Positions 1 to 20,876 of a stretch of 23,620 nucleotides of DNA are shown here, piece by piece. The stretch's first letter is position 1, and each line of letters begins with the position of its first letter. The DNA comes from Saccoglossus kowalevskii (Eukaryota > Hemichordata > Enteropneusta > Harrimaniidae), in NCBI RefSeq assembly GCF_000003605.2, contig NW_003132852.1, positions 185,404 to 209,023 on the forward strand, given 5' to 3'. A program made the translations under genes and the position numbers. The notes below the pieces were generated by a model, which made no database searches, was not told where the DNA came from, and saw nothing but the letters and a program-made list of their open reading frames with translations.

Positions 1-582
1 TTCGGATGTTTTACGAAATCGGGCACAACGCGACTTGATATTTGCTGAGTAATCTTCCACGGATTCGTCGGCTCCCTGTTTTCGCTCAGACAGTTCTTGT
101 TCTAGTATCCAGACTAAATCGGCGTTTTCAAAATATGCAATAAAGGCCGCCGTCAAAGCTTCATAATCATCTCTTACTTGGGCTGGCAATTCATTTACCC
201 ACATCTCGGCTGGGCCAGTCATCAACATCCTGAAACCTGCAGCTTTTCTATCATTCGGCAGTTGGGTAAAGTCTGCATAAGCATTAAATCTCTGTAACTA
301 GGTTGTCGCATTCTCTGATTGTTTACCTTTAAACGGGGCTGGCCCGATTCCCATGTTGACAGGCGTTGGACGATTTTGAAGATCTTCCACAACTTCCTGT
401 ATTCCTTCTACTGCTTGTTGTGTCATTCTTTGATCTCCAGCAATAGCTTGTGTCATTTGTCCAAGATGATCTGTTAAAACTTCACGGATTCCTTCCATTA
501 TATGTGTCTTTTGTCTTGTAATCATACAGTGTTCACAGTATGATTTTTGTGTTGAACACAATGCCCAAGGGTTAGCCACCAC
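1..582 (-). mobile_element. Ty3/Gypsy-type retroelement fossil, gag part
   Basis: Read on the minus strand, this stretch encodes a Gag-like protein: a helical N-terminal part (TDHLGQMTQAIAGDQR region) and then a capsid-like core with F-x-x-Y, W and alternating hydrophobic positions (PAEMWVNELPAQVRDDYEAL). The pattern fits Gag of Metaviridae; no zinc knuckle, protease or polymerase is reached before the window edge. The copy is broken, with at least one break in the visible part. Its LTR lies to the right, as expected for minus orientation. It sits downstream of the last LDLa exon, probably in an intron of the channel gene. Confidence 0.7.
569..581 (-). other. Candidate tRNA primer-binding site of the Gypsy fossil
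   Basis: On the plus strand the bases read GGGTTAGCCACCA, which looks like the 3' end of a tRNA (acceptor strand, discriminator, CCA). On the minus strand this gives TGG plus complement, two bases after an LTR end reading ATCACA. Position between gag and LTR is right for a primer-binding site; the tRNA identity is not assigned. Confidence 0.45.
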
Positions 583-583
583 G

Positions 584-1200
584 TGTGATAGGTATTTTTG
601 ATGTTTAAAAACCTTTCACTTAGGTAACCGGGATTCGGTCGTTCTCCACGCTAGACTCACAAGAAACACACACAAGCTCCATTCATGTTCCAAACGATTC
701 TCAGCTAAGTCCCTGGTTTTCACCCGAGACAGCATTAAATCACTCTTTATTTCTTGTCACTCCTTAACCAATTACAATCAGTATAAGAGACTCCAAGGCC
801 TTGCCTTAAAACAACCAACCAATCACATGAAAGTTTTACACATCATAATCAATTGATTAATTGTCAAGCTATTTAGAAAACCACTACTATATTGTCAACA
901 CTAACTAATATTTATGGGGTAATAGTCTTTCAATAACATTCCACAAAGATACCACATTAGTTAGAATCGCAAACAAGATTGGTTTAGTATTACAGCTACT
1001 GTACTGTAATCTTTTAAAACTACAGACTCATAAGATGTCTTTGGCTGATTTCGACTAGCTTGCCATCTGGCCTTGTCATTAACCTTTATCAGTAGATGTC
1101 ATGGCAACCACTGTCAAACTGACTGACCTCGTCGTTTAACCCCTATCAGTAGATGCCATGGCAACCACCGTTAGGCTGAAATATAAATCATGACACCATC
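584..1200 (-). mobile_element. LTR of the Gypsy-type fossil (far end not resolved)
   Basis: It starts TGTGATAGG next to the candidate primer-binding site. It carries a minus-strand AATAAA (746-751), the usual polyadenylation signal of an LTR. Bases 741-827 align almost collinearly with 16637-16724, a second LTR-like copy. A 57-bp tandem duplication is present at 1079-1192. I could not locate the outer TG/CA end or a target duplication, so the right limit is approximate and may reach about 1330. Confidence 0.5.
1079..1192. repeat. 57-bp tandem duplication with X-box-like motifs
   Basis: Two copies begin at TTAAC 1079 and TTAAC 1136. They share TATCAGTAGATG, then CATGGCAACCAC. Inside the copies, GATGTCATGGCAAC (1095-1108) and GATGCCATGGCAAC (1152-1165) differ by two and one bases from the palindromic RFX X-box GTTGCCATGGCAAC. 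A duplicated motif in the upstream part of an LTR often marks an enhancer. Confidence 0.6.
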
Positions 1201-2057
1201 ACCGAAAGTGACCTAAATCAGAGCATAATTAGATGGTCATTACCTCCAGAATTTTTGTCTTTGTCAAGCACCAGATTGTTGACAAAATAATTGTATGCAG
1301 GGGTATATGGTCTTGCCAACCTAAACGTGAATCGAGACACAATCGGAAATCGGTTAATGGATTTTGATGGTGAACGGAGGTAGTAGTGTCAATCATATAT
1401 TAGCATTCTTGCATATGATTAAAACACATTTTTTTTCTCGAAAACTGTTTAATTGACCAGAATTCAATTTTCCCAGCGACTGTATTCCTTGAAATGCAAT
1501 AATTGTAACAATAATGTCTATATAATTGTTTCTTTTTTGTCACTTTCAATTTCTTGGAGATTGCAAATGTTTTTTCCAGAGTGAACGTCTGAAAATCAAA
1601 GCATCCGCCGCTATGCGTGTCTGTAAACGGATTTGATTTTCCGGTGTCTTGACATCATCTACAGATAATTTCTGTGTCATTGTGATCAACTATTGTGAAT
1701 AGTGTGGTTTTTGTAGCCACTCATCACTGAAATTTAGGACTTTCTATTATTTGCGGACCGGTTTGTTCGTATCATCGTGTTGTATGCTCCGATTAGAATA
1801 TTTTCTTCGGTGATGTCGACATCTCTACCAGTGCCTGCCATACTCGTAGTAACTGCCACACCTTGTCTTACATAAAACGTCGTTTGTGGCTTAAAACACT
1901 CGCATCACTGCAATACTTTCGGATAATGATATCAGTACATTCATATTTGAAGGAGAATATTTATTTTGTTGCATCAAATGATGCAAACCCGCCCTCTGAC
2001 CGAAACACTGAATTCACAATAACTGATATTGATAGAAAATATATAACGAATACTCAC
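1201..2057. other. Intron sequence after the last seen LDLa exon; nothing recognised
   Basis: AT-rich non-coding sequence between the retroelement LTR and the last LDLa exon. No channel domain (palm, thumb, second helix) could be found on the minus strand. A 35-codon minus-strand ORF at 1734-1841 has no recognisable motif. Confidence 0.4.
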
Positions 2058-2174
2058 TATCTGTACATAAATCAAGATCTTCATCATCTTCCTCGTAGCA
2101 GTCATATTTCCCATCACAGACGAGGAGCTCATTAATACATTGGCCATTATTACATTTAAACCCATCACATGTAC
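2058..2174 (-). CDS. LDLa exon 10 of array (last exon seen)
   Basis: The acceptor reads TTTTAATAG and the donor GTGAGT; 117 bp, phase 1-1. It encodes [18 protein letters not shown] and then [18 protein letters not shown]. Six cysteines and the acidic cage are present, with DDE in place of SDE. The clear donor in phase 1 means the transcript continues to the left. The next exon is not recognisable within the remaining 2 kb, which a retroelement fossil partly fills. Confidence 0.88.
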
Positions 2175-5100
2175 CTATTAAAAGGTATTGTTTAAATTAG
2201 TGTAAAATTCATTTAACATACATGCTGCAATGCATTGGGGACCCTTTCTGGTATAAAGAAACAATATATGTAAGTAGATGAGCAGATATGCCTCTGTGCA
2301 ATGAAAGTTTCATTTCATTTATTCATTCATGTGTAAATGTTACAGGCGGAGCCTAATTACAAACTGCAGAAGAAAATAAAATAATATAAAGCATTGAGGT
2401 TTATTTGGCTTCGCGGAAACAAATATATGTGAAACAGCTTCCATGACAAATGAACATGTGCTAAGTTGCTAAAATGGATCATGGATCCTGTTTGAGACTG
2501 CAAACACAGGAAAACTTTAAATTGACTGACATTTCACATGACATATATAATCTTTGAATTATTATATAGAGTGCAAAAGAGATTTAACTATTGAGTGTTG
2601 TAACCAAAGCAACATGTCTTTTATTGTGCTAAGGTAAAATAGTGCAACGCTTGATAAATAATAATTAGTCAAAACTAATAGTGTGTATGTGAAAGTGATT
2701 GAGTAATTTAGTTATGCCAATATCCTCATTTAACAGTACCAACTTAACAAATTGAGTGTGTAATCTTGTTATAAATACTCATCTAGTTCACTTACTTTTG
2801 TTTTATGGCGATGTTATGTAACATTTTATTGGGATTACGATAAATTGTATTTGGATATAAATTGAGTAGAGATTATGTGGTTAGTACAAAATACAGATTT
2901 TTGTAAAACTGCAGTGTTCGATAGTATGTTGTCCTAGCTTCGTTGGGTATAAGAATTATCCAGTTTTGTAAAAATCAAATATGTGAAACCTTTTCATTGT
3001 GGGTTTCTAGGAAATTATGCTGTATGTGCTTGTACAAAATGCACTTAGAGGTGAACAGCTTCAAAATGTCTTCACTTACGATTTCTACATAAATCAGGAT
3101 CTTCATCTTCTGAATAAAAACTATGACAGTCCATGTGCCCATCACACAAACGGTGTTCACCTACACAGATACCGTCTTCACACATTACCCCAGGACACAC
3201 ACCTACCAAAAATATCGATTTCAAATAAGATATTAGTGTACACGCCTTAAATTTCTAAAATAGTAATAATTTGGGGGAATAATTTAACGGCTTGTAAAAT
3301 AACTTTTTAACATGTCGAGACAACGTGCCGTTATATTGATCACTGGGAAGAATAAGTTCTCACTTAAATATGTAGTTGATATATATGCCCTATATATTGT
3401 ATATTGTATGGTTGGTATATGATGGAATGAAAATGTTGCTGTTGACCTAATAAGTTGGTATAGTTAATATACATACCAAATGAGAGAAAACAAATAAACA
3501 CAGATATAACAAAATGCGATGAAATATAACATCCCCGGTTGAATGCAGATTATGAGAACATAAGTCATTCGTGTGAGATTCAGCTATTGACATGTTGATC
3601 AATATCATTAGCATTTGACCACTCGAATTTGGTAATTGGTCTTTATATACATCTGCGATCTAAATGACTCTGACCATTGCAGGACATGATGTGTACACTT
3701 ATCTGCTTATTGATCACCTTCATTTTGTATAATGTATTGTCTATGTATGTTTATGAACTTGTATTTTCCCTGTGCGATTTTCGTTTTATTATCTAGAGTT
3801 GTATTCATTATTTTTACTATAGCATTATACGTGTAATTATTAATCAAATGTATAACAAACGTCTTCACATTGATTCAATCAATGTGCTATTTTATGAAGA
3901 GTTATTATTTCCGCTATACCATTATACGCGTGATTAATAATCAAAGTTATTAGATACTATATCAACATCCTCACATCGACTCGAACAATATGTTCTATTG
4001 TGAAGTTACAATTGCTTCACAGTTTGCAAGAATTCTTAAACGCATTGTTTTTTTAATTTGAATGCCACCTCACTGTGAATTATTAAATATGTACACTTTG
4101 GAAAATATTTAATTTTTCAGTCAGTCATTCTTCAATTTCCTGTTTTGCCTTATCTTGAATGACATGGAAAAGGTATTGTATTGAATGAACTCTGACCATG
4201 TTATTGTTAGGTTATTGCAAAGTGAAAGTTTCTATACAATCAGCTTAACGTTTGATATTTTATGCATCATAATAATGTAATAGTATTTGAGGTAACATAG
4301 GAATGTGTGTCTATCTGATATGGGTTTTTTTCAGTTGTTTGCATTTTTTGGCAACATCAATCAATGTTTATTTCTTTAATATCTTTATTTTTTATTAGAT
4401 AAAATATAAAAAATACATCATTGTAATTTTGAAAGACGACTAAATATAGAATTTGACTCTAGTTTTTAATAAAATATTCATGATATTTGGAAAACAAACC
4501 TGTTTGGCTTTGCATTATATTCCAGTTGTCGCTTTTTTTTTTGATATTTTCTTTTATTATAAAATTTGCATAAAGCAATTGACATAATAATAACACTTTC
4601 TGTTCATTAATCCCTCAAAGGCTTGACAAGAAAACAAAACGAAACAAAAAACAATTAAGGCCGTACATATTAACGGGTTCACTACCAAAACATAGAAGTA
4701 ACGTTGGAAGCATGTCTTATGGTGCAAAATTGAATTGCATTTTTCTAGAAACAATAACGTGGTTTCTTTTCTTATATAAATCATATTTTCTATCTTTCTT
4801 ATATAACTAATTTCAGCTTTAATGGCAACAAAGGATGGTAATTCTTTCTTAATTTTGCTTGTATAGATACACTTTTTAAAAATTATAATTAAATGGTTCA
4901 AAAGGTTCGAGAAACTTTCATCACCATGGAGAATCTGTTTTGCTGAAAGTGCCAAGGGCACTGTCAACGTTGACCCCAGTGATCATAAAATCTTCTCCAA
5001 ATATCGGGCACCACTTGACAGTCACAAAAGAGATGTACCAGAGGTGATTGTAGGTGATTGAAAGTGATATAGCATAGCATTTGTGTACAGGATGTTATGG

Positions 5101-8100
5101 TTTAATTTCCAGTGAAATTCACGAAGATTGTTGCAAATTGTAACAAGACATGGCATTGAATAGAAAAAAATCCATCTAGTTTCTACCCCAACAAGTCTCT
5201 AAAGAGGGACTGATTAGTTGGAGTAATAACAAAATTCGGAGGAGATGAGTTAACGCCTAAATTTAAGGGGTACAGTTAGAAGAACTAATCATTTGCTTTC
5301 GACCATATACACAGATTGGAGGTTCTGGTCGCACATAAACTGGTCTACTTATTTTCCAGTCTTTAGATATAGCCGCAAAGAGACCCTGCCATTAAACCTA
5401 ATGTATTTAAGTCATTCCAAGTTTTAACCTTACTTATTCCAGTTTATTATTATTCCAGTTTAATATTTTTGTGATTGAGTTTCATGGTAGTTTGGGAGGG
5501 TCATACAGAGATCCATACGAATTGGCTTTCCTAATTCCTCTGGACCTCCCTCTGGTAACATATGTTCAGTCCATGGCCTATGTCTGAAAGAACATTCCGG
5601 TGCAATTCCAATGCTCGAAAACAGTATTGTTTATATCTGATCATCATCTGGTCAAAAGACCTGTATACCTCTTCCGTGTTTATTACTTGACACTCATCGC
5701 AATTTAAATTGAGTATATACCTGTTTTTGCATTATCTACTAATTCAAAATATGGAATATTAATATATTTATAGCTTACGATTCGAACACATATCAGGATA
5801 TTCGTCGGATCCATCTTTACAGTCATCTATCCCATTGCATACAACTCGCAGACCAATACAACGACCATTGTTGCATTTAAACTCGTGACACGGAACTATG
5901 GAGATAAAAAAGAAGCAATTCATTTCTCACGATATAATATAATTATGGTAAATGGTATTGCATAATGCACTAGAAAACGCAAGGACTACAAAATATAACC
6001 AGTGCAAACTGTATCATAAATGAAGTCAAGATGGTATGAGTGCGCATGAAGACACTACATTGCAAACTCTGATCAATGACTGGTTAATAGTTCGTCTCTG
6101 TGTTTGGCACAGAGTTGGTTTCACGAATTAAATGAAAATAAATACACACAATTTAAGTTACGGACATTTCTTGACACACAGGGTGATTTTGTATGCATTT
6201 CAACAACCATACCAATAAACATATTTGTAATTGCACAAATTCGACCGGAAGTGGGCAGCAAGATAGGGCCGTTTTTCAATAATTTTAATTTATTTTTAAT
6301 TCGCTGCTGTATATAGAAACGACAGTTTCATTTTTCGAGGAAATCGGAGATAAGACAAATCCCTTTATTTTATCTTCATTAATTTTAATGATATCAAATT
6401 AATGTGTTTATTTAAAAAAAATATTTAAAATAATAAAACGTCAAGGTTCGGAATCAAACCTGCTAAGTTGCAGTTGTTCTTCACATAATCAAATTGTCTT
6501 TTTTCTTGTATGTAAAACTTATTTCATGCATTATAATACCAGAAATTGAATTGCGCAGCATGACATACTTGTAACGCAAAAACAAACAAAAACAGTTAAA
6601 GTACAATATAACACGGTATCATGATAAGATAAATCTAGGCCGGTTTGGCATTTTGTTTTACCGATTGCTGTTTGAACACTGCTTGTTCTGTTGAGAATAT
6701 AACAATGCAGATGTAGTTTTGAGTGTGAACGCAAGGTGATGTGTATTTGATTATACATGTACAATTAATGTTGAAGCTATTTTAAACTGACGTTTTTGTT
6801 GCATAATCACAAAATGGACAATAACTGACATTACAATGTATGCGGAAATGTATTTATTTGCTTAGCAACCATTTGCTACTTATGTGAAACATGTAAAACC
6901 TTGTAATGTTTTGATTTTTTGTCTACAAATTGAGTTTTTCTGTATTTCAACAGCATAAACAATCTAACATCCTTAAAGTACCGATATACCAATGGTTACT
7001 TTCTTCGAAAGTATGGCGCATGTACGTCGAACTACTATATTATATACTGGGCATTTCCATTCAGAGCCAAAACTGGACAAGGTTAGACCCAAAGAACGGT
7101 GTTAATAAACATCTAAAAACGTCTTTTTGATCTTAGATAACGGGGATTTTATAGAAGCGCATATCTTGCCATATTTCTCCACCGACATCTCAGATTGCTG
7201 CCTGTGCAATGTGGTTAACATACCAGAGATAGCAATAGGATCAGACAAATCTGTGATCCAACAAGTCATCCAAAGAGTGTTTACTAGGTTATGACGTCAT
7301 TTGCTATATCTCAGTCCTCTCTGATATCTAGGAGAATTGTAAGGTTCAGGTAAAACCTACACCTCAGATATTTCATAAAGTCCACATCTATTGGCCTGGT
7401 TCGACAATTCAGCCAGTAAAGCGATTCTATATATGTTACGAGCTATGTAAATCGCTATATACAGTATATTGTTTTTCGTGCTAAATGTTTAATAATTGTT
7501 CATGTATTGCTGAATATATAATAACACTTAGTGAAGTATGAAAGATATTAATAGAAATTAGATAGAGAATATTTGTTCATATAAACAACTCACGGTGTCC
7601 ACATAGATCGGCGTCTTCATCATCGCCATCGGGACAATGATTAAATAAATTACAGGTAAAACGCATTTCGATGCATCTACCGCTCTTGCACTTGAACTCA
7701 GTACATATCGCTACAAAATTAACAAAATAAACTTCAGATTATTGTGGACAACATAACGGACATCGAAATACCCATTAGTAAATATAAACAAGCGTCCATC
7801 TGAGTGGTATGGTACGAGATATAAAGGAAATATAGATGAAGACCAGCAATTAACGAGTTTATTATTGTGTTTGCACATAACCTGAACTGTACTATCTTGC
7901 TATGACTACAATTTTGGATCATTTTAGCTTAATAAAGGTAATTAATAGATGTACTAATATCAACCAACGATTTGTTTTGTATAACCTATAATCTAAAGTG
8001 TTAAGCATGGAGTATTATACACGTTATCACAGTATGGTATTACATTTGGCACCGGACTATTGAAAGTAATTTGCACGATCCTGTAAACATATCATATTTG

Positions 8101-11100
8101 AAACAGACACCAAACAATATCTTTTGGATGCATTATTCTGCGTTTTGCGTGAATTACTGAGCCTACGTCTTTGGGTCGACTTGTGCAAATATTGTTTTGT
8201 TATTTCAGTTCAAAGTTCTTACCCAAGAGACCTACCGTGAATATTGTTATGTTTTGAAACGTGTGACGGTTAAAAACATATGTTCATACACTGACAACAT
8301 ATATTCTACTTTGTCCACGATACAGCAATTTGATTGAACAATACACTGAAGAAACTATCTCTCATATGGTCGAATAAGACGCACATAAGTGTACTATGCC
8401 GAAGTGTAGTGGTGAGGCAATGGAGGAATAACGAACCTTGGCTGACAAAGAGAGGATATTTCAAAACACACAACTTATTGAGACTCGGCTTTTATTACTA
8501 TAACTGTTGAAGTCGACGGTTCTTCGTTTGGTTTGAGGGGGCTGGGAAACTTGGTCGGAGATTATCGATTTCATACAGTAGAGAGGGTTTACTGACCGAA
8601 CTAACATTTTTGAAAAACAATACAGCAAAAAAGTTTCAAAAGATTATTATGCTTAATATTTGCTAGCTATCTCTCAAATATGTTAATAATGATGCTGAAT
8701 TATGTAATGGATTTTTTTTCAGGTACGTTATTTACAAAATTTCAAGGCATCAAATAATTCATATAATTTATCAAATAGCAAAAGTTTTATGTTTAGTTAA
8801 TATAAAATTATTATTATTTTACAAAATACTTTTTTTTTTAAATTCCATAGTGCAATGAAATGAATCAAAATAATGTTCATGTTTCGAAAAATCACCATAG
8901 TGACAGACCACTTCCATTGGAAATTCACTTATATACTGTACCGATCCATAGAAAGTAGCAATGACACTAGCTGGTTGTTTTGGTTGCTTCTATGGGAAAT
9001 CACAGGTGATTCGTTTCTGGAATAATTCAACAATTTTAGATAAATATTTCCTTACTGTTGTTACACACAGCTTCATCTTCGTCCTCTCCATTGGGACAAC
9101 GGGGATAACCATCACATACATCAAATTGGTCAAGGCAGATGTGGTTACTACACTTGAAATGAGGACATGTATCTGAATAATATAATTAGATTGCAAGTCA
9201 TATCCTACTTTTCCTAACCTATAACTGTATTTACACTTATTTAGAATTGTTCAAATTATTCATCACAGCAGTGAAAAATATTAGTTAAGATATTAAACAT
9301 GTTATGTTGTTGTTTTGTTATTGTCTGATAAAATGTGCAATTTCAATACTAGGTGTATGCAAATGATAATTTGATATGCTATTTATCAGTGTTAAACGTT
9401 TAGAATTGTACCTTTTGAATATTTGGCCAAGATGTACTCTACAAAACCTTTAGTTCAGTGGTTCGGACGAGAAAAAACAAAGCCTTTTTTTTAAAAAAAG
9501 TCCGCATAATTACTACATCCCTGGGCTTAATGATTGAGTAAGTACGTATGTACCCATATAAGTAGAACATAGTGGAAGTCTGCTGTAATGATGTTGAAAA
9601 TTGATGACATTGAAAACTGGTTGATAAGTTGGTGATGCAGTGTAACGTCGCCCACCTTCAATATCTTCAATATTAATGTTACGTACACAAATAAAATAAA
9701 ATCTATTCGGGGTCTGTATATATCATTCCTTTAGTAATTTGATCATATTAAGTAATGTATTGTTTATGTGTTTCGTTTGCAGTTGTCACGAACTCTAATT
9801 TTCACTTCGCAACTTCTGTTTAATGATTTTAATTCGGTGTGATATTTTCACTATACAAACTTGCAAGGATACTGCACAATTATTTACTCACGAATTTCGC
9901 ACATCGCGCGATTTTCGTCCTCTCCCCAAGGACACGCGCGATATCCGTCGCAAAGCTCTATCTCCTCAATACACTGGTGGTTGTAGCACGTGAAGTCGGG
10001 ACATGTATCTACCAAATAGAGTATGTTGGAATGTTAAATTCGATTGATGTAAAAATATATTGTGTTTTGTGTTCATACAAGAAAAGCAACGTTTGAACAA
10101 TGAATCCAAAGAAAAAGATATCTATATACATTTCGAAGTATATATCAGTCAACAAATCAGTCGATTTATCATTGTTATTCGGTAAAATGCTAATTGCAAA
10201 AGAATAAACACAAGAACAATTAAGAAGTAATTACTATTAGTCGCGTACACAGGTATTTACTTGAATGCGTAATGTTTGTTTAATTTGAGAATGATTGTAT
10301 AGCTTTTGTATTTTATATGTTTCTCAATTTCATGTATATGTAATAAACTCAACTGTTTAACTATTAACTCGCCATTCCCAAACACATTCCTAGTTGTAAT
10401 CCAACATTACAATATTGTATAATCTGACACGAGGATGTTGGTTTGTTTAGCTAACATGATTATTATCCCAGTTACCAGTTCGTACAATACAAAAAACGAT
10501 AAGGCCAGTTGCATTTATTTTACTTTACTAGCAATTAGGCATTTTTGTCACATAATATTTATGTTATACATTTGCACATAGCATTATATATGTATGAATA
10601 GCCACATTGTTCTCACAACACACACAAAAGCTAAGAGTAGTTAGTGTTGACCTATTTGTATCATCACATCGTAATGAGTACCTCAAAGGAAAGCATAACT
10701 CTCCTGGCATAATTGTAATGAATATAACTAACTTTATCTACTTTGTTTACTTCTTTTTCAATCACGCTTCACACTGATATGTATTTACAATATAATAATG
10801 GAAATAAAACAATAAATTTACTCACAACTTTCACAGTTTATCTTTTCTTCACCTTTAGAACATACATTTAATGGATACAACTCAGCACATCTTTTGAGAT
10901 CACTGATACAAGTGCCATCATAACACCGAAACTCACTTTCTGAACATTGTTCTGCACAATGAAATATACACCATGGTAGTTTATATATAGGTGTTCATAT
11001 TTTTGGAAGCATAGCACGATTACAATTATGCGCTATTCGGCGATACGACTTATTACGATTGTTGTTGACTTGGTGTTAATAGTAATAATATGAAAGAATT

Positions 11101-14100
11101 TGTATTTACAGATTTACTGATGATAATATAAAGTATAACTTTGAATGGCAAATCTTTCGTAATAAAATGTGCTGCGTATGGCTCAGTGTTTAGCCAGTTC
11201 GAAAACCATATTGCTTGGATTTGGTCAATCAATGTTTTAAAATGTCTCAAACATGGTTGTAGAACAAAAACATTGTCACACCTACACAGTTTGTTAAACA
11301 CGATTTATGTTGTTAATACGAGTATGATAAGACTCGTTACAACAAACACAAAACTTTAAGTTTCTTCCTGCATTTCACACCGATAACGTTCATACACTCT
11401 TAAAATAAAGATTTGTCCAGTTTTTTATAAATCTAAAACAGCAGAATTGTACCAGAGCCAAATATTGCACTAAATTAAATGATACACACGAATATTAGAT
11501 CGTGTCTAAAAATGTACTTACGAAGCGGATATTTACAGTCCTCATTATCAGGTTCGTCACTGTAGTCGTAACAGTCCCGAATTCCATTACAAAATGACGA
11601 ACTTGGGATGCAATCTAAGTTGTCACACGTCCACTCGAATGCAGTACAAGTTACTAAGAAGAAAGAGAAATAAGTAACAATACACACGTTTGTGTCAAAT
11701 ATAAGATCGATTTCATTGTCAAAACAATTGTAAAATCACAATTGTTCTGCTCATACATCGAATTAGCCAAATTACGTCATGGATAAACCCTCACATTCTT
11801 CACATATACATTTATACACTTGGATCAATGTCACAATTGTACTTTATTTTATTCCAATCCACACTTTCTGTAACCAACATACATACACTCAATGCAACAT
11901 ACAATAAATATAAACCATAAGTACCTTTAGGACAGTCTGCTTCGTCCATGTCGTTTGAACAATCAAATTTGTGATCACATTTCTGGTTTAATGGGATACA
12001 CTCGCCTTCGGTGCATTTGAATTCAGAGTCATAACAGTCGCCTAGAAAAAATAGAGGTGCAAGCAGTATTACAGGTTACAGGCAAAGATTTAACATTTTC
12101 TAGTTAGTTGGTAAATGTAATCTCAATTATTAAATTGTAGATATACTATAACTAACCTACTACTGTTGCTATTTATGTTATCATATTAAATAATATATAG
12201 TAATCTGAAATGTAATGGTTGAACAAAATCAGCAAAAATGCTTGTATTGCCTCCAAATAAAACTTTAGATCATACGGAATAATACAAAGCCACGTGGAAA
12301 ATCCGATTTATGATCCAGTTGTATGGTTTGTCCCAAAGAGGGCGCCACAGTATCTGAAAAATATTGTTAAAATCCAATACGGCGTTTTGTTCGTGAATTA
12401 GCTAGTCTAAATATCAATAACAAGGGAAGAAAATAAACAGAATGCCTAAAACTATGGTTGAAAATGGCAACTTCCAATTTATTTCAACCAAATATGATAC
12501 GTTTTCCAATCAAAATTGTGAAAGTTAAGTGCATCAGATCAAATCAGGGTCAATAAGTACAGCATGTTAATGGTGCTCACAAACAACTTGGGGTGGGGGA
12601 CGCAGAGAAGAAACGCGTGTTTAACGCAAACCACGGAACTGGTCTTTTTGTTTTATTGAAAGCGCTATATTGCAGATGAATGTATTGGAAAGTTGTTATT
12701 ATATAAAGGGTATTTTGCCCTGTTTTTTTTTTACCCTGTTTCAAAATATCGAATATAACGCGAAAAGTCACGTGATTGCTATGGTCAATGGTCACTTCCA
12801 CTCCAAGATGGTCGCCAAAGTAGTAGAAGCAGTTCGCAATATTTCACTGCATAACTTACAGTCTGGGTCTACAATAAGTAACAAAAGATGACCAAAGAAG
12901 AAATAAAGACAAAAGACTAACAATAAGAATTCAAGCTTTGCTCATAACCCTAATTAAAATAAGTAATTTAATATGTCATAACAATGTACCATTAATTTAC
13001 TTACGGCAGTTGTTTTCATCTTCTGAGTTTAAACAGTCTCTTACACCATTACATTGCATATATGGTTTAATGCAGTTGTTTTCGATGTCGTTACATGGTA
13101 TATCGTCTTCAGAACAAGGCCCTGTGATAGAAAAAATAGTTTTATTATATTGGATATTCACTGTCAATTCACTGCAAGCCTGTTCAAATAGAATATGCAA
13201 ATCGGATATTTTTAAATATTGGTGTTTTAAATATTATGTGATACAGCAGGGTACACCGCACTACGGGGGAAAATAACTTCCATAAAAATGATTTATTCGC
13301 TTCATATGTGTAAAAGAATCTCATAGAAATACACCATATACCGACATTTGCTGATGTTAAATCGTCAGGTAAAAAAATTGAATAAAATTATTTACAATTC
13401 GAGGGAAACGAACGAAAAATCGTCCACGAAGGTACAACCTTGCGTGAAAACTAACAATTCCACTGAAGGAGGAACACAATGCAGTGGCGGTGGAACACGA
13501 AGGGACAGTTTCCCTCTCGAAAAAAATTCGCCCCTCCAAAATCAAGATGCAACCATTGATGTCAGCAACATTTGCCACTCAAATGCAAGAAATATCGTTT
13601 CAGGAAAAGCATGCCTCCGGACCCCTCAGTAAGATCGCGCTTTTAGCGCGAGGTTGGTGAGCAGATTTCGCCCTTCCATGCAAAATCGTACCGCCGCCTA
13701 TGCAATGGGTTACATAAAACCGATTAAATATTCATACAGTTATATAAACATAGCGATCGCCAATGGGTCTTAATTTTCCTTGCCTCAAACCTTTAAAAAA
13801 AAAAACTTTCTATAACGCAGTTTTCCGCGATCCCCAGTGGACCATGCGCAGTTAGACGACCCGGTTGAAATGAGTCATATTTTGATACACAACGGCTATT
13901 TGCAGTTTTTACTGCTCATTAATGTAGTAACCGATAATGTAACACGATTTAACCGATATTGTAATAAAAACCGATAATGTAAAAATTCGCAACCAATAAT
14001 GTAACAAAAAAGAAAACGATAATGGAACACAAAATAACCGATAATGTAACATATTTTTTGAACAACCGTTAATTTACAAAGACGGTAACCTATAATGGAA

Positions 14101-17100
14101 TAACATATTTGCATGTGTATTTACTATAAGCGACCAGGAAAATCCTATTTTAAACACGACAACATTAGCATTCATGTGCAGCTTGTTAGCACGGGCTTAG
14201 AGGGCAAATATCTTGACCGGTGTTACGAAAACATGCGTGCGAGCTACGAAACGGCGGGTACCGATTAAATCTGACCCCCGGCTCTGCGTTAATGTTATTT
14301 TGAGCTAATAATTGCTTGGTTGATGCATTATGGTCGTTTATTGTACACGATCATTGATTATCCATAAAACTCCGGTATGAGATAATTGCTAAAAAGGAGA
14401 TTATTAAATAACCAAAACGTTAAACTCATACCCAAATATACTATTCCATGAACGTATGAATAAATGGATTAAGAACATTCAATATTGCCTACTTTGAACA
14501 AAGTAGAATTACTCTATCGGTGTTTGGCTGACCCTCTTTTCGCTTCTACCGCGTCAACTTTCGATACTTTTTTTCTTAGATAATATCGATAACAATATCT
14601 AAGTCAAATTGTTGGTCTAAATTATTTATACAATACTGATACACCTATAAATACATATACAACATTCAATGTATAGTCAATTCATTTACATTGTATATAT
14701 TGCACTTGTAATTATTGTTATATGATAATTTCACCAGGTCAATACATCATAATTATATTAATCTTTCATGTAATGTTGCATATACCACCACATGTATTCC
14801 AATAAATACCACCAGTCCAATTGTCCAATTGGATATAATCATCACGTGTCTATCACTATTTTGTATGTATTGTTTATAATATAGTTTTATATGTCATACT
14901 ATTTTACACAATGTCAGTCATTTTTATCTTTGTTTATTATGTATGTGTTGCTAGTTCCTTGGAGTCATTGTTTGAAGTTTGAGTTTACTTCACGCAAATG
15001 CATTTTGGGTAATGCTGACATCCTATCACTATGTTTTGTTTGAGGTGTTAATGCTGACTTTGTTGCTTGATTTGTTATCTTTGCACACTGTAACCTTCGC
15101 ATTGAGAGCTATTTAAGCTACTCAGTCTGCCCAGTATTTCAGTTCAACTTGGTATTCCGACTTACACCTCAGGCTACTATAGTAGTCTGCGCTTACACAT
15201 TAGACCCCCTTAACTTGATTAGAAATAATCAGATCTTTAGTGAATACAATATTAAGATGAAATTAAGGTAAATAACATAGATTTTCGAATGAGTAGGTTA
15301 AGACTGTAACACTTGAAGGTAGTGGCTGTGTTGGAAACTTGAAGCTGGTTGCGAATGAATTTGCAAGTTTGCATGATAAGTAGGATTAGTCATAGCACAT
15401 TGGTGACAAATGTAATGTAATGAATGTAAATCATATTTCGATGCCAAGGGTAAGGAGACAAGTGACTGTGATGTCATGCCAAGCATAAACATAAGTAGTG
15501 TAGAACGCTTACAATACCTTGAGATATTATTTTCGAGAAAAAATGAACTGACGCTGTGCGCCATCCTGTTATTCTGCAATCTGCACTTTCCGAATTTGCT
15601 TTGGTATTGCACATGTATACTTTCCTAGTTATTGTTCTAAGTAATCATAAATATAATGACTGAAGATTTGTATTTTCTTTGGTTTGGGCGTTCCTCAGAC
15701 CGTGCTAACAGTTTTTTCCTAGCCGATATTCAAACTTATGAGATAGCTCATACTTGGTGTAGCCTGAACAAGACTATAGACTACAGTAATGTGTAATCAT
15801 GCTATAAACATTTACTTAGTTCACGCGTTAGTACGTCCATGGTTCACGGTTTTATTCATTACTAAAACATCCGGCCATATCTAACTGCACTTCCCTCTAT
15901 CGTCATGTTATACTACCCGGTATTATAAATGAGTATATGTTTTCATAAATTCACCACCGAGGGCGTGATTTCAGTTTGTGTCGAGCATTCAGTCAGCAAA
16001 TCTCAGCACATGCCGAGTTTCGATCGCGAGCATCTATCAGGATCGAGATCGAGTTTTCAGCACGTGCCGACTCGGTCGCGGGTCTCGGTACGTGCCGAAA
16101 TCTCTGACAATAAATATTGTTCGAGTTGAGATTTTGATGAATAAGTATAAACACGAACCTGTTATACCGGAATCTCCATTTAAACCTAATCTCACAACAA
16201 GTTTGCTTTCTGGGTTAGAATATCAATGCATAACATGGAATGTACTAACCTATGCCTAAACCTAGTAGGAACACGTCGCCGACTGTGACCGTTCCTACGA
16301 TTCTCATAAATGATTCTCAGTGTTATCAGGCGGTAAATTCTTCTCCTCGGGGTTCTCCACACTTGTCAGGGGGGAATCTCGTCTCGTCTCTCTATTGCGT
16401 CCCCTTGAGGTATGGATCGGGAAAGTCACTTATACTTTACAGTCAAATAAGGCACACACAACGAAATACGTTTCAGCTCTCGTCTTAGTCGGTCAATCAA
16501 GCACTCTATAAGACACAGCGCCCTGGGGAAAAATCCCCAAGACTATCGCAAGGCTGACCCAAGACTAGCCCAAGACTCTCCGGGACTGGACTTTCGACTG
16601 CCTCTATCGTGCTGTGCTCCCCAAGACCAACTCAAACTCTCTTTATTCATTTTCAAAACTCTAACCAATTACAAAGCAGTAAAAAGACTCTAGGGCGTAA
16701 CCTTCAATCATAAGGCCAATCACACTAAGTACTGAATACGTCATATATTTTGATTAATCGTTCACTACATTAATAACTATGAATATCAACTGTCAGAATA
16801 GCTACGGTTATCTCGTAATTAGTTCCAAATCACTGAGCCAAGTTCCTTTCAAAACTTCAAATAGGCCTAAACGATAACAGACATAACACAGCAATTCAGC
16901 TAATAATCGGCTAATTAAGTCGGTTAACAGATACGCAAAAACAAATTCATGACAGTGTCGTTAAAAAGTTGTTTTTATTCAATTTCTCATTGGATCTGTT
17001 CTGTCGTCCTTTCTGTTTGTATCGCATAATTTCAGACACAATTTTTTTGTTTCCCGTTGAGCTATTAATTTGTCACAGTATTTCTTCACTATGTCCACAC

Positions 17101-20100
17101 TCCCTGTATCCGGGTAGAGGGAATGTACTCCGCCAAATATATATTACGGTGCGTAGCTCTTCGTCAAGCCAGAAATTACTTGAAATTACAAACGATTTTG
17201 TCTCCTTCCTAATTGTAATGATAAGTTACTTGAAGAAGACGACACAGGGCGTGATTTGTGTATGTGTGTTGGTATCCGATGCGTATACAATGTCGGACAC
17301 CTGTCGGGGCAAAACTCTATAGGAGCTCAACCTCAGATCGTTGTTGATTTGTTCAAGTGGTGATTCGTTCTGATTCATATCTTCAACCAAACTCCCAATC
17401 TGACTAGACAGACAATGTGCGGATGGCAGCTTATTGTTCTTCTATAACACTAGTAGTTATTCTGTCCATGTGGACTGAAACACGTACATGACCGAAATGA
17501 GAGTACAATAGAACTACATGCATTATTAATTCCGACACGCAAATATCACGTCTTGTATGTACGGTCAAAATTTGTATTAATTTATATTTAAATTATATTA
17601 ATATTGAATCGAATTAAAGTTACGTTTGTTTAGTTTAGGTTTAGCAAAGGGGGAGGTATGGTTCAATTTATATTAATATTAATATAATTGTACCATACCT
17701 TCAATACTTTCCCCCTTGTATTAAACTTAAGCTTCACAAACATTTCTATGTTGAGTCACGGGATATTCAACCTTTATTTAATGATGAAACTTAATTATAA
17801 AGTAATTCTACGTTGAATTGCATTGTAAATGAATTTAATTAAACTCATATTAAACGCAGACCTATATGGAAACGTTTTAATCGAGTTCATATCGCAATTA
17901 TATTAAAAGTTAATACAACTATATTAAAATTTAATCCAATGTGTGTCGATACAGCGACGGTAAGACTTGCGTGTGTGTGTGGGGGGGGGGATATTACACA
18001 ATAAACGATGTAACACAATATTCGCGACGTTTCCAAAGGATAAGTCGTTACTCGTGGGTTTGTGAAACTTGGAAATGACGAAAATATCACATAACATCAG
18101 TGACAATTTATTTTGGCGTGATTGGCTAATATTGAGACGAACACCTGTACCGTAGTACTGAGTTTATGCACTATGCATGTCCTTCGTGGCTTGCAAGGTA
18201 AGCCCATCTTAGAGAATCATGTCGACAATTCTAAAGGGTAACTTCAAAGTTTCCTGTTCTGTATCATGGTATATGCGCGTAGTCATATGGTCCGTCTCAT
18301 AATCGAGAAGTAATAAGTTAGTAGACATCTGACAAATATCTCATCGAAAAAGTTCGATCTAGGGTCCATGTGCAGAAAACAATCCATGGGGAAAATAGAA
18401 CTATGCATATTAACTATGTTAACACGCTAAGTTGTTATCCAATCGCAGACGTGAATTCATGTAGCAGGCGATGAAATGAACTTGGTATTTTGATATGTCG
18501 CTATCTAACCATGTTTTACAAAAGAAAGGAAATCTCACGCAACAATGCGTCGGTTCAATTTACTATTATTAAAATTGTCACGCTTCTGTAGTAGCATGTA
18601 TGTCGCCATTTAGTGATTTCATCATCATCAGGGACTAGAGAGTGAAAGTAAATAGTTTCTATATTGTTTACCGCAGCGAACATGCCAGCACCCTAAGGTT
18701 GCCTGTATATATTACTGGTCATCCTAATCGGCAAATGAATAAAATAAGTAACACGTTCCATTAGCTCCGTTATTAGTGTTGTTATGTAATGCTTATATAG
18801 CTTAGGTCAATGGTCTATGGAAATAAATTGTAAATAAACTACGAGAAGTTCTGTGAACTAAGGACAAGTGATTAACTCACTCATTAGCCTGAGCATGGCC
18901 ACACCTCCAATAAACAATCGTCCAGCGTGACTAAATTGGGCATTTTATAATTTCACAAAATTTAACAACTGTTTTACACTCTCTCAAAATGGTCATGTAT
19001 ATTGTCTTGGAAGCTCACACGATTCGCCGTAACGTTATGGCATCACCGAAAACAGACTTTGAACGAAAAGATATAAGCAAGGTGGACATGCTCCCTAAAG
19101 TAATACTTTTTTTATAAAATTGTAGCTAAAAAGCAATCAAAATTATTTTTCTTTGATGGGATGATATACGACGTAAAATACAGTATATTCCATATCGTTG
19201 TAGAAAATGTGAACAATTTCAATTGATTTAAGATAGCAGCTACACATGGTATTACATTATCGGGAGTCATCTTGTTACGTTATCAGTTCGAAAGAAATCT
19301 ATTACATTGTCAGTTATTTTCTTTGTCACATTATTGGTTGTGAGTTGTTACACTAGCGGTTTTGTAACAATATCGGTTAATTCGTGTAGCATTATCGGTT
19401 AATGATACATTATCTAGAATTTATTACAATATCGGGTCCAAAAATCGGATGAAAATAGTACAAATAGCATAGACAAACACTACTTTGTTTTGCTCCCAGA
19501 CTTCATTTGCACATGGGTTGTGGAAATACCGATTTTGATTTCAAGGACGAATCAAAATAAACTGCAGTAAATATGTAATATTTATTTTTTTCTAAAAAAC
19601 GAGTTTTCAAACTACATTTAAAAACATTAATAAAGTTACAAGTCTATCTCTACTGCTGACGAATATAAAAGTACAAGCTAATTTTCTAAAAGAGAGCATA
19701 GTTTTTTCACGAACGCTGAGCGTACATTCCCGTGGTACATTTTTAATCTTGCTTTTTCATTTAAAAAAAAGTGTAAGATGGCCTAACGCCACCATGACAC
19801 GCTGCATATCAGTCAACCAAGTGCCATGGATATGTTTAAGGAGAATTGTTTAAAATTATATACACAGTCAACAATACAGGTAAATGAAATCAAGATTTGT
19901 GTTATACGATTGACAAGTAATGTTGCAATATTCTAATCTCTTGTCACAAACCCTAACCCATGCAATTTTTGAAAAGATACACATTGAACATGTCAAAATA
20001 TCAAATGGCTATTGTGAGACTTTTTATATAGTTTTTAATAACGTTCCTATGCCGATTTTAGAACTTGGCCTGAAGTTCATATAGACATTAACAAAAACAT

Positions 20101-20876
20101 ATGATATAACCCCAACAAATGTATATGTATGAAACACACCATTGGCATCTATCATAAGGTTCATACCAAACACTTGGGAAATAGTAGTAAACAGTCCTTT
20201 GGTGCAAATTACAAAAGCATATTAGGATGGTTATAGTATAAAATATACAAAGAACAATTGAAAATTATTCATCAATATTATATTCCAAATTTACCCATAT
20301 TTAGCAATTGAAGGATGAGTAAAATTAATATATATACAAAATAAATTGGTCTCGAAATAGTATAGAACTTAAAATGAAATGAAAAATGATACGATAGACA
20401 CATATCTTACCTTTATACACGATAGGGAAATATTCGTCAGATTTCGCTATGTCATCATATATTGTGTTCTTTATAGCTGATCTCCGCATCTTATTCATAT
20501 TACACATCGTCACAGAAGGGAACTGAATGGTGTTATTCTTTGTGACTGTCAGCTTAAATGTTACATCGTAGTCGAAATATTTAATAATTAATGCACTGGC
20601 ATGTAAAGTGAACACGCAGAAGGAAACCAAAACAATAATGCTCCATATCATCTTGTGCATTGGTTTTACCGATGATGACACACGACTGATCCCATGTGCT
20701 GATGTTTCTGATGCGAATTGTGCTATGACATTGCTGAGCTTCTTGTTGTTTTTGCTGGTGAGTATTTTATGAGGGGTGTTGGTCTCATTGGACACGGCTT
20801 CAACGATTGATGCATCAGTCTGTCCATCACCAGGATGAGTCTCATCCTCAATAACGATCATTTCTGTGGAAGTCAT
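2058..20876 (-). CDS. DEG/ENaC-family sodium channel with ten LDLa modules (partial, 11 exons seen)
   Basis: This is the gene-level entry; the exons are listed separately. Spliced order is 20876-20411, 13121-13005, 12041-11925, 11653-11522, 10951-10826, 10008-9892, 9172-9056, 7710-7594, 5895-5779, 3202-3080, 2174-2058. What is seen: all splice sites are GT-AG, all ten junctions are phase 1, and none of the ten split codons makes a stop (G, R, V, Q, Y, H, T, L, R, R). The result is an open frame of 555 codons plus one base. Known from the family: DEG/ENaC channels are trimeric, usually amiloride-sensitive cation channels with short cytoplasmic ends, two membrane helices and a large cysteine-rich ectodomain. 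LDLa modules are six-cysteine, calcium-dependent ligand-binding folds. Inferred: the LDLa array sits extracellularly just after the first palm strand, where the finger domain normally begins. The second helix is not in the window. The alternative is two adjacent genes, but shared strand and phase argue for one. Confidence 0.72.
2175..3079. other. Intron between LDLa exons 9 and 10
   Basis: About 0.9 kb of AT-rich sequence with no ORF or repeat that I recognise. It is bounded by the GTAAGT donor of exon 9 and the AG acceptor of exon 10. Confidence 0.6.
3080..3202 (-). CDS. LDLa exon 9 of array (expanded acidic loop)
   Basis: The acceptor reads TTTGGTAG and the donor GTAAGT; 123 bp, phase 1-1. 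It encodes [18 protein letters not shown] and then [20 protein letters not shown]. Six cysteines and the DGxxDC ligands are present. The C5-C6 loop is two residues longer than in most sister modules and reads SEDE where SDE is usual. The aromatic before C2 is replaced by M. Confidence 0.86.
3811..4009. repeat. Diverged tandem dimer, period about 97 bp
   Basis: Unit 1 (from 3811) and unit 2 (from about 3908) share ACTATAGCATTATACGTG versus GCTATACCATTATACGCG. TTAATAATCAAA-like, CTTCACAT/CCTCACAT and AATGTGCTATT/ATATGTTCTATT segments then follow in the same order. CATTATAC lies at 3823-3830 and 3920-3927. Only two units are visible. Confidence 0.55.
4557..5600 (-). pseudogene. LINE (non-LTR retrotransposon) ORF2 3' fragment
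   Basis: The minus strand shows three pieces in the order expected at the end of a LINE ORF2. First, [20 protein letters not shown] (about 5145-5080). Second, the C-x-C segment [20 protein letters not shown] (5035-4976). Third, the C-terminal helix region [20 protein letters not shown], continuing to IENMIYIRK, inside an open stretch at 4557-4967. The pieces lie in different frames and stops interrupt them, so the copy is dead. Upstream, [12 protein letters not shown] and AISKDWKI (5300-5430) also fit ORF2. No reverse-transcriptase YxDD or endonuclease part remains, and the 3' tail is not evident. The clade (CR1/L2-like or other) cannot be fixed. The upstream limit is approximate. Confidence 0.72.
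5779..5895 (-). CDS. LDLa exon 8 of array (canonical)
   Basis: The acceptor reads CTCCATAG and the donor GTAAGC; 117 bp, phase 1-1. It encodes [18 protein letters not shown] and then [18 protein letters not shown]. This is a near-textbook LDLa module: FKC, GRCI, NGxxDC and DGSDE are all in place, so calcium binding is expected. Confidence 0.92.
5896..7593. other. Intron between LDLa exons 7 and 8
   Basis: 1.7 kb, AT-rich. ORFs of 66-77 codons at 6104-6316, 6531-6764 and 6930-7130 show no domain, no consistent splice signals and ordinary AT-rich composition; I regard them as chance. No clear repeat. Confidence 0.55.
7594..7710 (-). CDS. LDLa exon 7 of array
   Basis: The acceptor reads TTTTGTAG and the donor GTGAGT; 117 bp, phase 1-1. 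It encodes [18 protein letters not shown] and then [18 protein letters not shown]. The FKC-x-x-GRCI core is typical of LDLa. The position before C5 is H, not D, while the DGDDE stretch keeps most of the acidic cage. Confidence 0.87.
7711..9055. other. Intron between LDLa exons 6 and 7
   Basis: 1.3 kb of AT-rich sequence with poly-T and poly-A runs near 8710 and 8830. No gene or mobile-element domain recognised. Confidence 0.55.
9056..9172 (-). CDS. LDLa exon 6 of array
   Basis: The acceptor reads TTATTCAG and the donor GTAAGG; 117 bp, phase 1-1. It encodes [18 protein letters not shown] and then [18 protein letters not shown]. Six cysteines are present. The residue before C5 is R instead of D, so the calcium cage is incomplete, as in its sister exon at 9892-10008. 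Confidence 0.87.
9173..9891. other. Intron between the duplicate LDLa exons 5 and 6
   Basis: 0.7 kb. It contains a T8/A7 snap-back run around 9483-9500 and otherwise nothing recognised. Confidence 0.55.
9892..10008 (-). CDS. LDLa exon 5 of array
   Basis: The acceptor reads TTTGGTAG and the donor GTGAGT; 117 bp, phase 1-1. It encodes [17 protein letters not shown] and then [18 protein letters not shown]. All six cysteines are present. The acidic residue usually just before C5 is replaced by A, so one cage ligand is missing. This module and the next (9056-9172) share CDGY-x-x-CP-x-GEDE and the same first ten exon bases, which marks them as a recent tandem duplicate pair. Codons here are more GC-rich (several CGC/GCG) than in the neighbours. 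Confidence 0.87.
10009..10825. other. Intron between LDLa exons 4 and 5
   Basis: 0.8 kb of AT-rich sequence; no ORF, repeat or RNA gene recognised. Confidence 0.55.
10826..10951 (-). CDS. LDLa exon 4 of array (divergent, calcium site degraded)
   Basis: The acceptor reads CATTGTGCAG and the donor GTGAGT; 126 bp, phase 1-1. It encodes [19 protein letters not shown] and then [19 protein letters not shown]. The six-cysteine framework and the F-x-C aromatic are kept. The acidic cage is mostly lost: N/D-G after C4 becomes AE, the D before C5 becomes V, and the SDE position reads GEE. A structural spacer role, or a fold without calcium, is plausible. Confidence 0.78.
10952..11521. other. Intron between LDLa exons 3 and 4
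   Basis: 0.57 kb. Overlapping opposite-strand ORFs at 11053-11301 and 11141-11359 carry no recognisable domain and are taken as chance. Confidence 0.55.
11522..11653 (-). CDS. LDLa exon 3 of array (tightest calcium-cage match)
   Basis: The acceptor reads CTTCTTAG and the donor GTAAGT; 132 bp, the longest of the ten, phase 1-1. It encodes [18 protein letters not shown] and then [19 protein letters not shown]. The SDE triplet and the DC before it match the LDLa calcium cage closely. Extra residues lie between SDE and C6, and a short tail KYPL follows C6. The frame is open on both flanks, so exon ends rest on the splice consensus and on phase agreement with the neighbours. Confidence 0.88.
11925..12041 (-). 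CDS. LDLa exon 2 of array
   Basis: The acceptor reads TTTTCTAG; the donor is a weaker GTACTT; 117 bp, phase 1-1. The module runs [16 protein letters not shown] and then [16 protein letters not shown]. All six cysteines and the aromatic before C2 are present. The acidic ligands (D before C5, D-x-D-E before C6) look intact, with S of SDE replaced by D/M. Only 271 bp separate it from the next exon, the shortest intron in the array. Confidence 0.87.
12042..13004. other. Intron between LDLa exons 1 and 2
   Basis: About 1 kb. The stretch 12300-12900 is less AT-rich than its surroundings and may be an old interspersed repeat, but no terminal structure or domain was found. Confidence 0.5.
13005..13121 (-). 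CDS. LDLa exon 1 of array
   Basis: The acceptor reads TATCACAG and the donor GTAAGT; the exon is 117 bp, phase 1-1. It encodes one LDLa module with six cysteines, starting PCSEDDIPC and ending [16 protein letters not shown]. The C4-C6 segment keeps the calcium-cage pattern (N-G-x-x-D-C, then S-E-D-E), so this module is probably calcium-binding. It lies downstream of the channel exon across a 7.3-kb intron that contains mobile-element debris. Confidence 0.88.
13440..13720. repeat. GC-richer block, possible old interspersed repeat
   Basis: It stands out from the AT-rich intron by composition and by purine/pyrimidine blocks such as GGAGGAACACAATGCAGTGG and GCCTCCGGACCCCTCAG. It includes the perfect 7-bp-arm hairpin TCGCGCT-TTT-AGCGCGA (13635-13651). 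A 94-codon ORF crosses it but shows no domain. The style suggests a dispersed repeat; no second copy is in the window. Confidence 0.35.
13929..14101 (+). repeat. Left iteron array, about 8 units of AACCGATAATGTAAC
   Basis: Units read AACCGATAATGTAAC, AACCGATATTGTAAT, AACCGATAATGTAAA, AACCAATAATGTAAC, AAACGATAATGGAAC, AACCGATAATGTAAC, AACCGTTAATTTACA and AACCTATAATGGAAT. They are separated by 5-15 bases of A-rich spacer, so the period is about 20-25 bp. The 72-codon minus-strand ORF over this array is only a by-product of the repeat. Confidence 0.85.
16007..16098 (+). repeat. Three ACRTGCCGA motifs in a GC-rich patch
   Basis: CACATGCCGA (16007-16016), CACGTGCCGA (16061-16070) and TACGTGCCGA (16089-16098) occur within 92 bp, among TCG-rich sequence (ATCGCGAG, GATCGAGATCGAG). 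One copy contains the E-box CACGTG. Spacings of 54 and 28 bp are near a 2:1 ratio. Function unknown. Confidence 0.4.
16320..16960 (-). mobile_element. Probable solo LTR related to the Gypsy fossil at the left edge
   Basis: It has a minus-strand AATAAA (16642-16647) followed by a block (16637-16724) collinear with 741-827 of the left LTR. They share CTCTTTATT, CTAACCAATTACAA, CAGTA, GACTC and CCAATCACA at nearly identical spacing. A TGTTATCAGG start at 16320 and a shared TTCTCCAC support the left limit; the right limit is a guess. No gag or primer-binding site adjoins it on the left, hence solo. It is strongly diverged, so old. It lies inside the candidate foldback element. Confidence 0.45.
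17624..17741. repeat. Imperfect AT-rich hairpin, arms of about 55 bp
   Basis: GTTTGT...GGTTTAG...AAGGGGG...AGGTATGG pairs with CCATACCT...CCCCCTTG...TAAACTTAAG...ACAAAC. The centre, CAATTTATATTAATATTAAT plus its flank, is itself nearly palindromic. This could be a short MITE-like insertion or an arm centre of a foldback element. Confidence 0.6.
17977..17991. repeat. GT/G microsatellite
   Basis: A short GTGTGTGTGTG run followed by about ten G. Low-complexity sequence, position approximate. Confidence 0.6.
19250..19436 (-). repeat. Right iteron array, about 9 inverted units of the same motif
   Basis: On the plus strand the units read like GTTACATTATCGGTT: ATTACATTATCGGG, GTTACGTTATCAGTT, ATTACATTGTCAGTT, GTCACATTATTGGTT, GTTACACTAGCGGTT, GTAACAATATCGGTT, GTAGCATTATCGGTT, GATACATTATCTAG, ATTACAATATCGGG. 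This is the reverse complement of the unit in the left array, with similar spacing. Confidence 0.85.
20411..20876 (-). CDS. Exon 1: DEG/ENaC N-terminus, TM1 and first ectodomain strand
   Basis: The exon encodes 155 residues plus one base. Residues 1-50 are an acidic, then basic, Ser/Thr/Asn-rich cytoplasmic tail. Residues 54-64 read [11 protein letters not shown], matching the conserved pre-TM1 segment, with the HG gating dipeptide at 61-62. Residues about 77-98 are the hydrophobic first membrane helix ([20 protein letters not shown]). Residues 119-126, FPSVTMCN, match the FPAVTICN signature after TM1 and include the first conserved ectodomain cysteine. There is an N-glycosylation sequon at N114. 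The chosen start is the first in-frame ATG, with A at -3. The frame stays open about 16 codons upstream without an ATG, so a small 5' extension through another exon is possible. The exon ends in a GTAAGA donor in phase 1. Family assignment is firm. Subtype (ASIC-like, peptide-gated, degenerin) cannot be decided from this part. Confidence 0.9.

Follow-up and report, generated by a model that had tools for sequence, protein, structure and literature searches.

The stretch of DNA analyzed here in its whole length of 23,620 nucleotides (hereafter the window, C2444:185404-209023) carries on its minus strand the first exon of a DEG/ENaC channel gene and ten exons that each encode one LDLa module, and the best explanation overall is probably that it represents the 5' half of a gene encoding a DEG/ENaC subunit with an LDLa arm inserted into its finger domain. 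Support comes from a tandem paralog (copy 2) located to the right of the window, which almost certainly, to judge from its exon order, combines a DEG/ENaC TM1 exon, fifteen LDLa-type exons and the rest of the channel with TM2. The window copy very likely has the same architecture. Its features are the following:

20411..20876, minus strand: exon 1, with start codon, cytosolic N-terminus with HG motif, TM1, FPSVTMCN beta strand and finger start
13122..20410, minus strand: intron 1, 7.3 kb
13920..19412, no strand assigned: segment within intron 1, with inverted repeats at 13920-14027 and 19302-19412 of about 110 bases each
13005..13121, minus strand: LDLa module 1 (E2), splice borders and Pfam LDLa
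11925..12041, minus strand: LDLa module 2 (E3), splice borders and Pfam LDLa
11522..11653, minus strand: LDLa module 3 (E4), splice borders and Pfam LDLa
10826..10951, minus strand: LDLa module 4 (E5), splice borders and Pfam LDLa, degenerate calcium site
9892..10008, minus strand: LDLa module 5 (E6), splice borders and Pfam LDLa
9056..9172, minus strand: LDLa module 6 (E7), splice borders and Pfam LDLa
7594..7710, minus strand: LDLa module 7 (E8), splice borders and Pfam LDLa
5779..5895, minus strand: LDLa module 8 (E9), splice borders and Pfam LDLa
3080..3202, minus strand: LDLa module 9 (E10), splice borders and Pfam LDLa
2058..2174, minus strand: LDLa module 10 (E11), splice borders and Pfam LDLa, last module inside the window

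In the initial annotation, a DEG/ENaC N-terminus with TM1 and FPSVTMCN had been proposed on the minus strand. This is confirmed here by the Pfam ASC profile (PF00858), which matched exon 1 at 1.2e-20 (profile 1-88), and by a PDB search in which the FMRFamide-gated channel FaNaC (7yvb) was the closest solved structure (4.2e-13). The elements that define a DEG/ENaC N-terminus were all found, with HG at residue 61, TM1, and the FPxVTxCN strand (FPSV at 119), and human alpha-ENaC residues 58-147 aligned with exon 1 at equal lengths. As expected, no relatives of exon 1 were found among viral and prokaryotic contigs, and a search for RNA families gave 0 matches. The exon ends at a phase 1 donor, GTAAGATATG.

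Each of the ten LDLa exons is entered in phase 1 and has a length that is a multiple of three, with AG/GT at every internal border, and the borders previously assigned proved correct to the base. Joined to exon 1, they yielded the open spliced frame that had been claimed (555 residues without a stop), and Pfam LDLa (PF00057) matched this product in 10 stretches (3.8e-55). It had also been argued that the TM1 junction shares the phase of the array; it does (phase 1), but the argument is a weak one, chance agreement being about one in three. The eight modules scanned singly were all above the curated cut-off, the weakest being E5 (24.6 vs 24.1 bits), and the last two, scanned as one piece, exceeded it with 2 stretches. 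No extra LDLa was found in the array introns, the minus strand of 2000-11900 giving 7 stretches, no more than the known exons. Just past the last LDLa exon, a Retrotrans_gag match (Pfam 5.9e-7) lies at window 13-228 on the minus strand.

Six cysteines are present in 10/10 LDLa exons, and E6 to E11 have in common a shortened, four-residue Cys1-Cys2 spacing that suggests local exon duplication. The ten modules are acidic (92 acidic vs 32 basic residues), and six of them carry the full acidic calcium-site set, judged by LDL-receptor positions. LDL-receptor modules dock lysines with an aromatic residue; this aromatic occurs in only one of the ten. The closest solved match of the whole array was LRP2 (3.3e-124, summed over many stretches). 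For module 1 the closest solved structure was the LDLa of relaxin receptor 1, which leads VLDLR by 1.6 bits only, so that an RXFP-type arm was given no weight.

To find the rest of the gene, which the window ends inside, we searched the genome (572 Mb, 4830 contigs). To the left of the window lies a stretch of N (108304-185403). To its right, exon 1 is repeated at 90.1% DNA identity, with all ten LDLa exons in the same order and 82.9-95.7% identical to those of the window copy. The resulting gene model is:

C2444:272133-233510, minus strand: copy 2, 25 exons, 38.6 kb

Beyond the ten shared modules, copy 2 has five more LDLa-type exons (fifteen in all), and after the array the finger, palm, thumb and knuckle exons follow on the same strand, and then TM2. 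The 25 exons were chained in compatible phase into a product of 1,149 residues with no stop, in which Pfam ASC (7.9e-79, two stretches) and LDLa (2.9e-74, 14 stretches) were the only families matching at E 0.1. The second ASC stretch (profile 129-454) covers the rest of the ectodomain and TM2, which contains a GMS that we take to be the GxS filter motif of DEG/ENaC channels. Searched alone, the C-terminal 374 residues matched ENaC gamma (8e-34) and FaNaC (2.5e-33). Some details of the model are less firm: two acceptors are weak (M13, -2.3; P3, -0.6), that of the last-but-one exon (P8) was picked for phase alone, and about 20 residues before P8 as well as the C-terminal tail are probably missing. 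One module of copy 2 (E2) has lost a cysteine and M14 has only four, and the introns contain runs of N. The same contig also bears a further first exon (71553-71091, 84% identical) and a further 3' end, consisting of five LDLa matches (104471-99222) and then TM2 (87402-87100), whose link to any copy is severed by N stretches.

Copy 2 thus supports, on one strand and in phase, the earlier proposal of a DEG/ENaC channel with at least ten LDLa modules in its ectodomain. The window alone is no proof that the array belongs to one gene with exon 1, as the initial annotation had read it, but for the tandem paralog the matter is settled. The possibility had been raised that the LDLa exons start from a signal-peptide exon of their own, and none was needed or found, intron 1 of the paralog being 485 bases long. 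Nor did we find exon 1 continuing into an ordinary ENaC exon elsewhere, since such exons come after the array.

About 6.8 kb of intron 1 of the window copy is absent from the paralog. The segment between the inverted repeats (13920-19412) is probably an inserted mobile element, and a search of it for transposase gave no match. A Pfam scan of intron 1 on both strands gave no match, a search for hidden channel exons in intron 1 and the left 2 kb (three minus frames) gave no ASC match, and PDB searches of the intron 1 frames yielded no channel and one chance match (E 0.35). Two heuristic scans of the intron for a signal-peptide exon returned 0 candidates; only the second counts, as the donor threshold of the first was failed by 10/11 of the window donors themselves, and it has little power because block shuffles averaged only 0.55, its sensitivity being uncalibrated. 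Window 723-864 and 16620-16761 resemble each other and have the same orientation; they are possibly repeat-element remnants.

The position of the array in the channel can be read from the alignments on its two sides. The C-terminal part of copy 2 aligns from residue 237 of ENaC gamma and residue 278 of ENaC alpha, and because this alignment and that of exon 1 bracket the array, it lies between the finger start and these residues. We believe that it is placed in the finger just past the first helix, in the region that in ENaC forms the GRIP, the exact junction being extrapolated because the exon 1 alignment stops about 16 residues short. The ENaC structure paper (PMC6197857) locates the protease-sensitive GRIP in the finger, between alpha1 and alpha2.

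The comparison of the window copy with copy 2 gave a dN/dS of 0.233 (0.0686/0.2947; NG86, 553 codons), and exon 1 and the LDLa exons, taken separately, each gave 0.227; within exon 1 the opening 40 codons show weak constraint (0.51). Both the TM1 exon and the array have been constrained since the duplication, though a pairwise ratio cannot tell in which lineage.

Related arrangements recur in the genome. An ASC profile search scored 93 exons, 18 of which were first-exon matches ending at profile 78-100. The DNA that follows was read for eight of these 18, and extracellular modules came next in 8/8, with LDLa in seven (window, copy 2, C3229 twice, C958, C4507:613919 and C1313). At C3976:394301-412700 the TM1 exon of a DEG/ENaC gene is followed by two PAN_4 modules, and no LDLa was found there (the three scores obtained were below threshold and on the wrong strand). 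For three more of the 18, a module match stands at the expected place by coordinates (LDLa at C4507:148810 and C3898, PAN at C2445). The C3229 genes also have six PAN_1 modules. A compact case is C4507:603901-613900, 10 kb without N that begin right after the first exon and hold six LDLa, one ShK (4.7e-11) and TM2 (6.3e-8). Class 1-1 phase was obtained for 21/24 module exons by the best splice candidates, and for the other 3/24 only by the second best.

For a strand test we took the best 150 of 1658 LDLa candidates and dropped 25 from one LDLa-rich ORF of C4670, leaving 125. Among the matches listed, 40/125 had an ASC exon within 30 kb on the same strand and 1/125 on the opposite one; for PAN_1 the corresponding figures were 13/52 and 0/52. 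At least 29 of the 93 ASC exons have LDLa on the side expected of an inserted array, and at least six of those 29 have it on the other side too, possibly not all in tandem clusters. When the ASC first exons were sorted into classes, expected-side LDLa occurred in 7/18, 5/9 and 2/6 among the matches listed, against 0/13 for the type with a profile start of 15-22, although absence from these matches means little. A cluster of DEG/ENaC exons with profile start 15-21 occupies C3473:25621-111409, with no LDLa nearby among the matches listed. The very LDLa-rich region of C4670 (35786-41390) is mostly one open frame of 1735 aa and lies away from ASC exons.

In other DEG/ENaC genes the TM1 exon is followed by LDLa, PAN/apple or ShK modules, which suggests that a phase-1 intron at this point has been the entry point for class 1-1 module exons. 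It is possible, though somewhat less likely than not, that the genome holds a large family of mosaic receptor-channels with interchangeable LDLa, PAN and ShK sensors, in which the in-frame skipping of modules would produce graded sensors. As regards the gene studied here, the TM1 donor, the module exons and the finger acceptor of copy 2 are all in phase 1, so that modules could be dropped in frame. Without any of them, copy 2 is predicted to encode a channel of ordinary size, with 527 residues, and alternative splicing could generate any module number, from the 15-module receptor down to those 527 residues, and with it graded sensors from one gene.

In DEG/ENaC channels, the finger and thumb mediate gating by protons, peptides, force or proteases. 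The odds are about even that the arm binds something and that this binding is coupled to gating or to positioning. In a trimer, every subunit would project from its finger a calcium-stabilized, acidic and cysteine-rich arm; this arm might capture a soluble ligand, a matrix component or a partner protein, and the capture would shift the finger against the thumb and so open or close the sodium pore. The initial annotation had suggested that a calcium-dependent protein ligand might gate or tether the channel. The single docking aromatic among ten modules argues against the classic lysine-docking mode. Given this count and the acidic set in 6/10, we favor a model in which the arm captures a ligand or partner in some way different from lysine docking, presumably with coupling to gating through the finger.

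The strongest rival to ligand capture is matrix tethering, in which the arm is structural, anchors the channel to the extracellular matrix or a neighboring cell, or clusters it, and has a mechanical or positional role. Most modules lack the lysine-docking aromatic, and mixed LDLa, PAN and ShK modules are frequent in matrix and adhesion settings, which also counts in its favor. We nevertheless consider it the less likely reading, since insertion at the GRIP region, described as gating-regulatory in ENaC (PMC6197857), favors a link to gating. That shared finger region could also mean that the arm is a GRIP counterpart, inhibitory or protease-regulated and released by cleavage; however, the 555-residue window product has no furin-type site (R-x-K/R-R or R-x-x-R), and this reading is improbable.

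The two remaining explanations bear on the gene itself. The tandem copies, the large insertion in intron 1 and a 3' half beyond the N stretch would suit a window copy that is a decaying duplicate without function, yet its eleven exons and splice borders are all intact and dN/dS against copy 2 is 0.23 (though the lineage under constraint is not distinguishable), so we regard decay as quite improbable. Alternatively, this strand might carry two genes, first a DEG/ENaC gene or its remnant and then an unrelated gene with an LDLa array, for example GRL101-like (type C LGR) or LDL-receptor-like. The 7.3-kb intron of the window leaves room for this, module 1 is nearest to relaxin receptor 1 (by the small difference given above), and LDLa-array receptors exist in invertebrates (PMC6267866). 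Against it stand the 485-base intron 1 of the paralog, the channel exons flanking its array on both sides, a product with ASC and LDLa and without leucine-rich-repeat, 7TM or YWTD match, the strand bias of 40 to 1 genome-wide (among the matches listed) and, from a scan of low power, the 0 signal-exon candidates in the window intron. For the paralog, the short intron, the flanking exons and the ASC plus LDLa product largely refute two separate genes, and we hold this explanation to be highly improbable overall.

The two families joined here, DEG/ENaC and LDLa, are both well known. In the open-access literature we found no description of a DEG/ENaC channel carrying such modules, whether LDLa, PAN or ShK, and none of one region hosting all three, and predicted proteins of such a layout may well exist in sequence databases. 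If true, a modular finger arm would be a natural experiment on how the finger region controls gating, would widen the range of stimuli for DEG/ENaC channels and would be a case of receptor-channels assembled by exon shuffling in animals. Given the phase pattern, control by alternative splicing can be tested directly with RNA reads.

Compared with known systems, the paralog resembles FaNaC (7yvb, 8on7) and ENaC (6wth) in its two TM segments and its cysteine-rich ectodomain exons in order, the TM1 exon of the window being nearest to FaNaC and the C-terminal part of the paralog to ENaC gamma and FaNaC; this nearness means best similarity and does not alone place the channel in the FaNaC clade. 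An LDLa array is absent from the known structures, and ENaC has the GRIP at this place (PMC6197857). With the arrays of LDL receptor, VLDLR and LRP2 it shares tandem class 1-1 six-cysteine modules, but its array is embedded in a channel, it lacks the EGF/YWTD propeller and single TM that follow the array in that family, and in the window copy six of ten modules have the four-residue Cys1-Cys2 spacing and one of ten the docking aromatic. GRL101 and RXFP (type C LGR) are likewise membrane receptors with signaling-coupled LDLa modules: six LDLa motifs occur in starfish GRL101 (PMC6267866), and the LDLa module of RXFP1/2 is reported to be required for activation (PMC3822782). In these receptors, however, leucine-rich repeats and 7TM follow the LDLa, and the paralog product, with neither, is a two-TM channel; the mosaic family, if true, would be the sodium-channel counterpart of these LDLa-bearing GPCRs.
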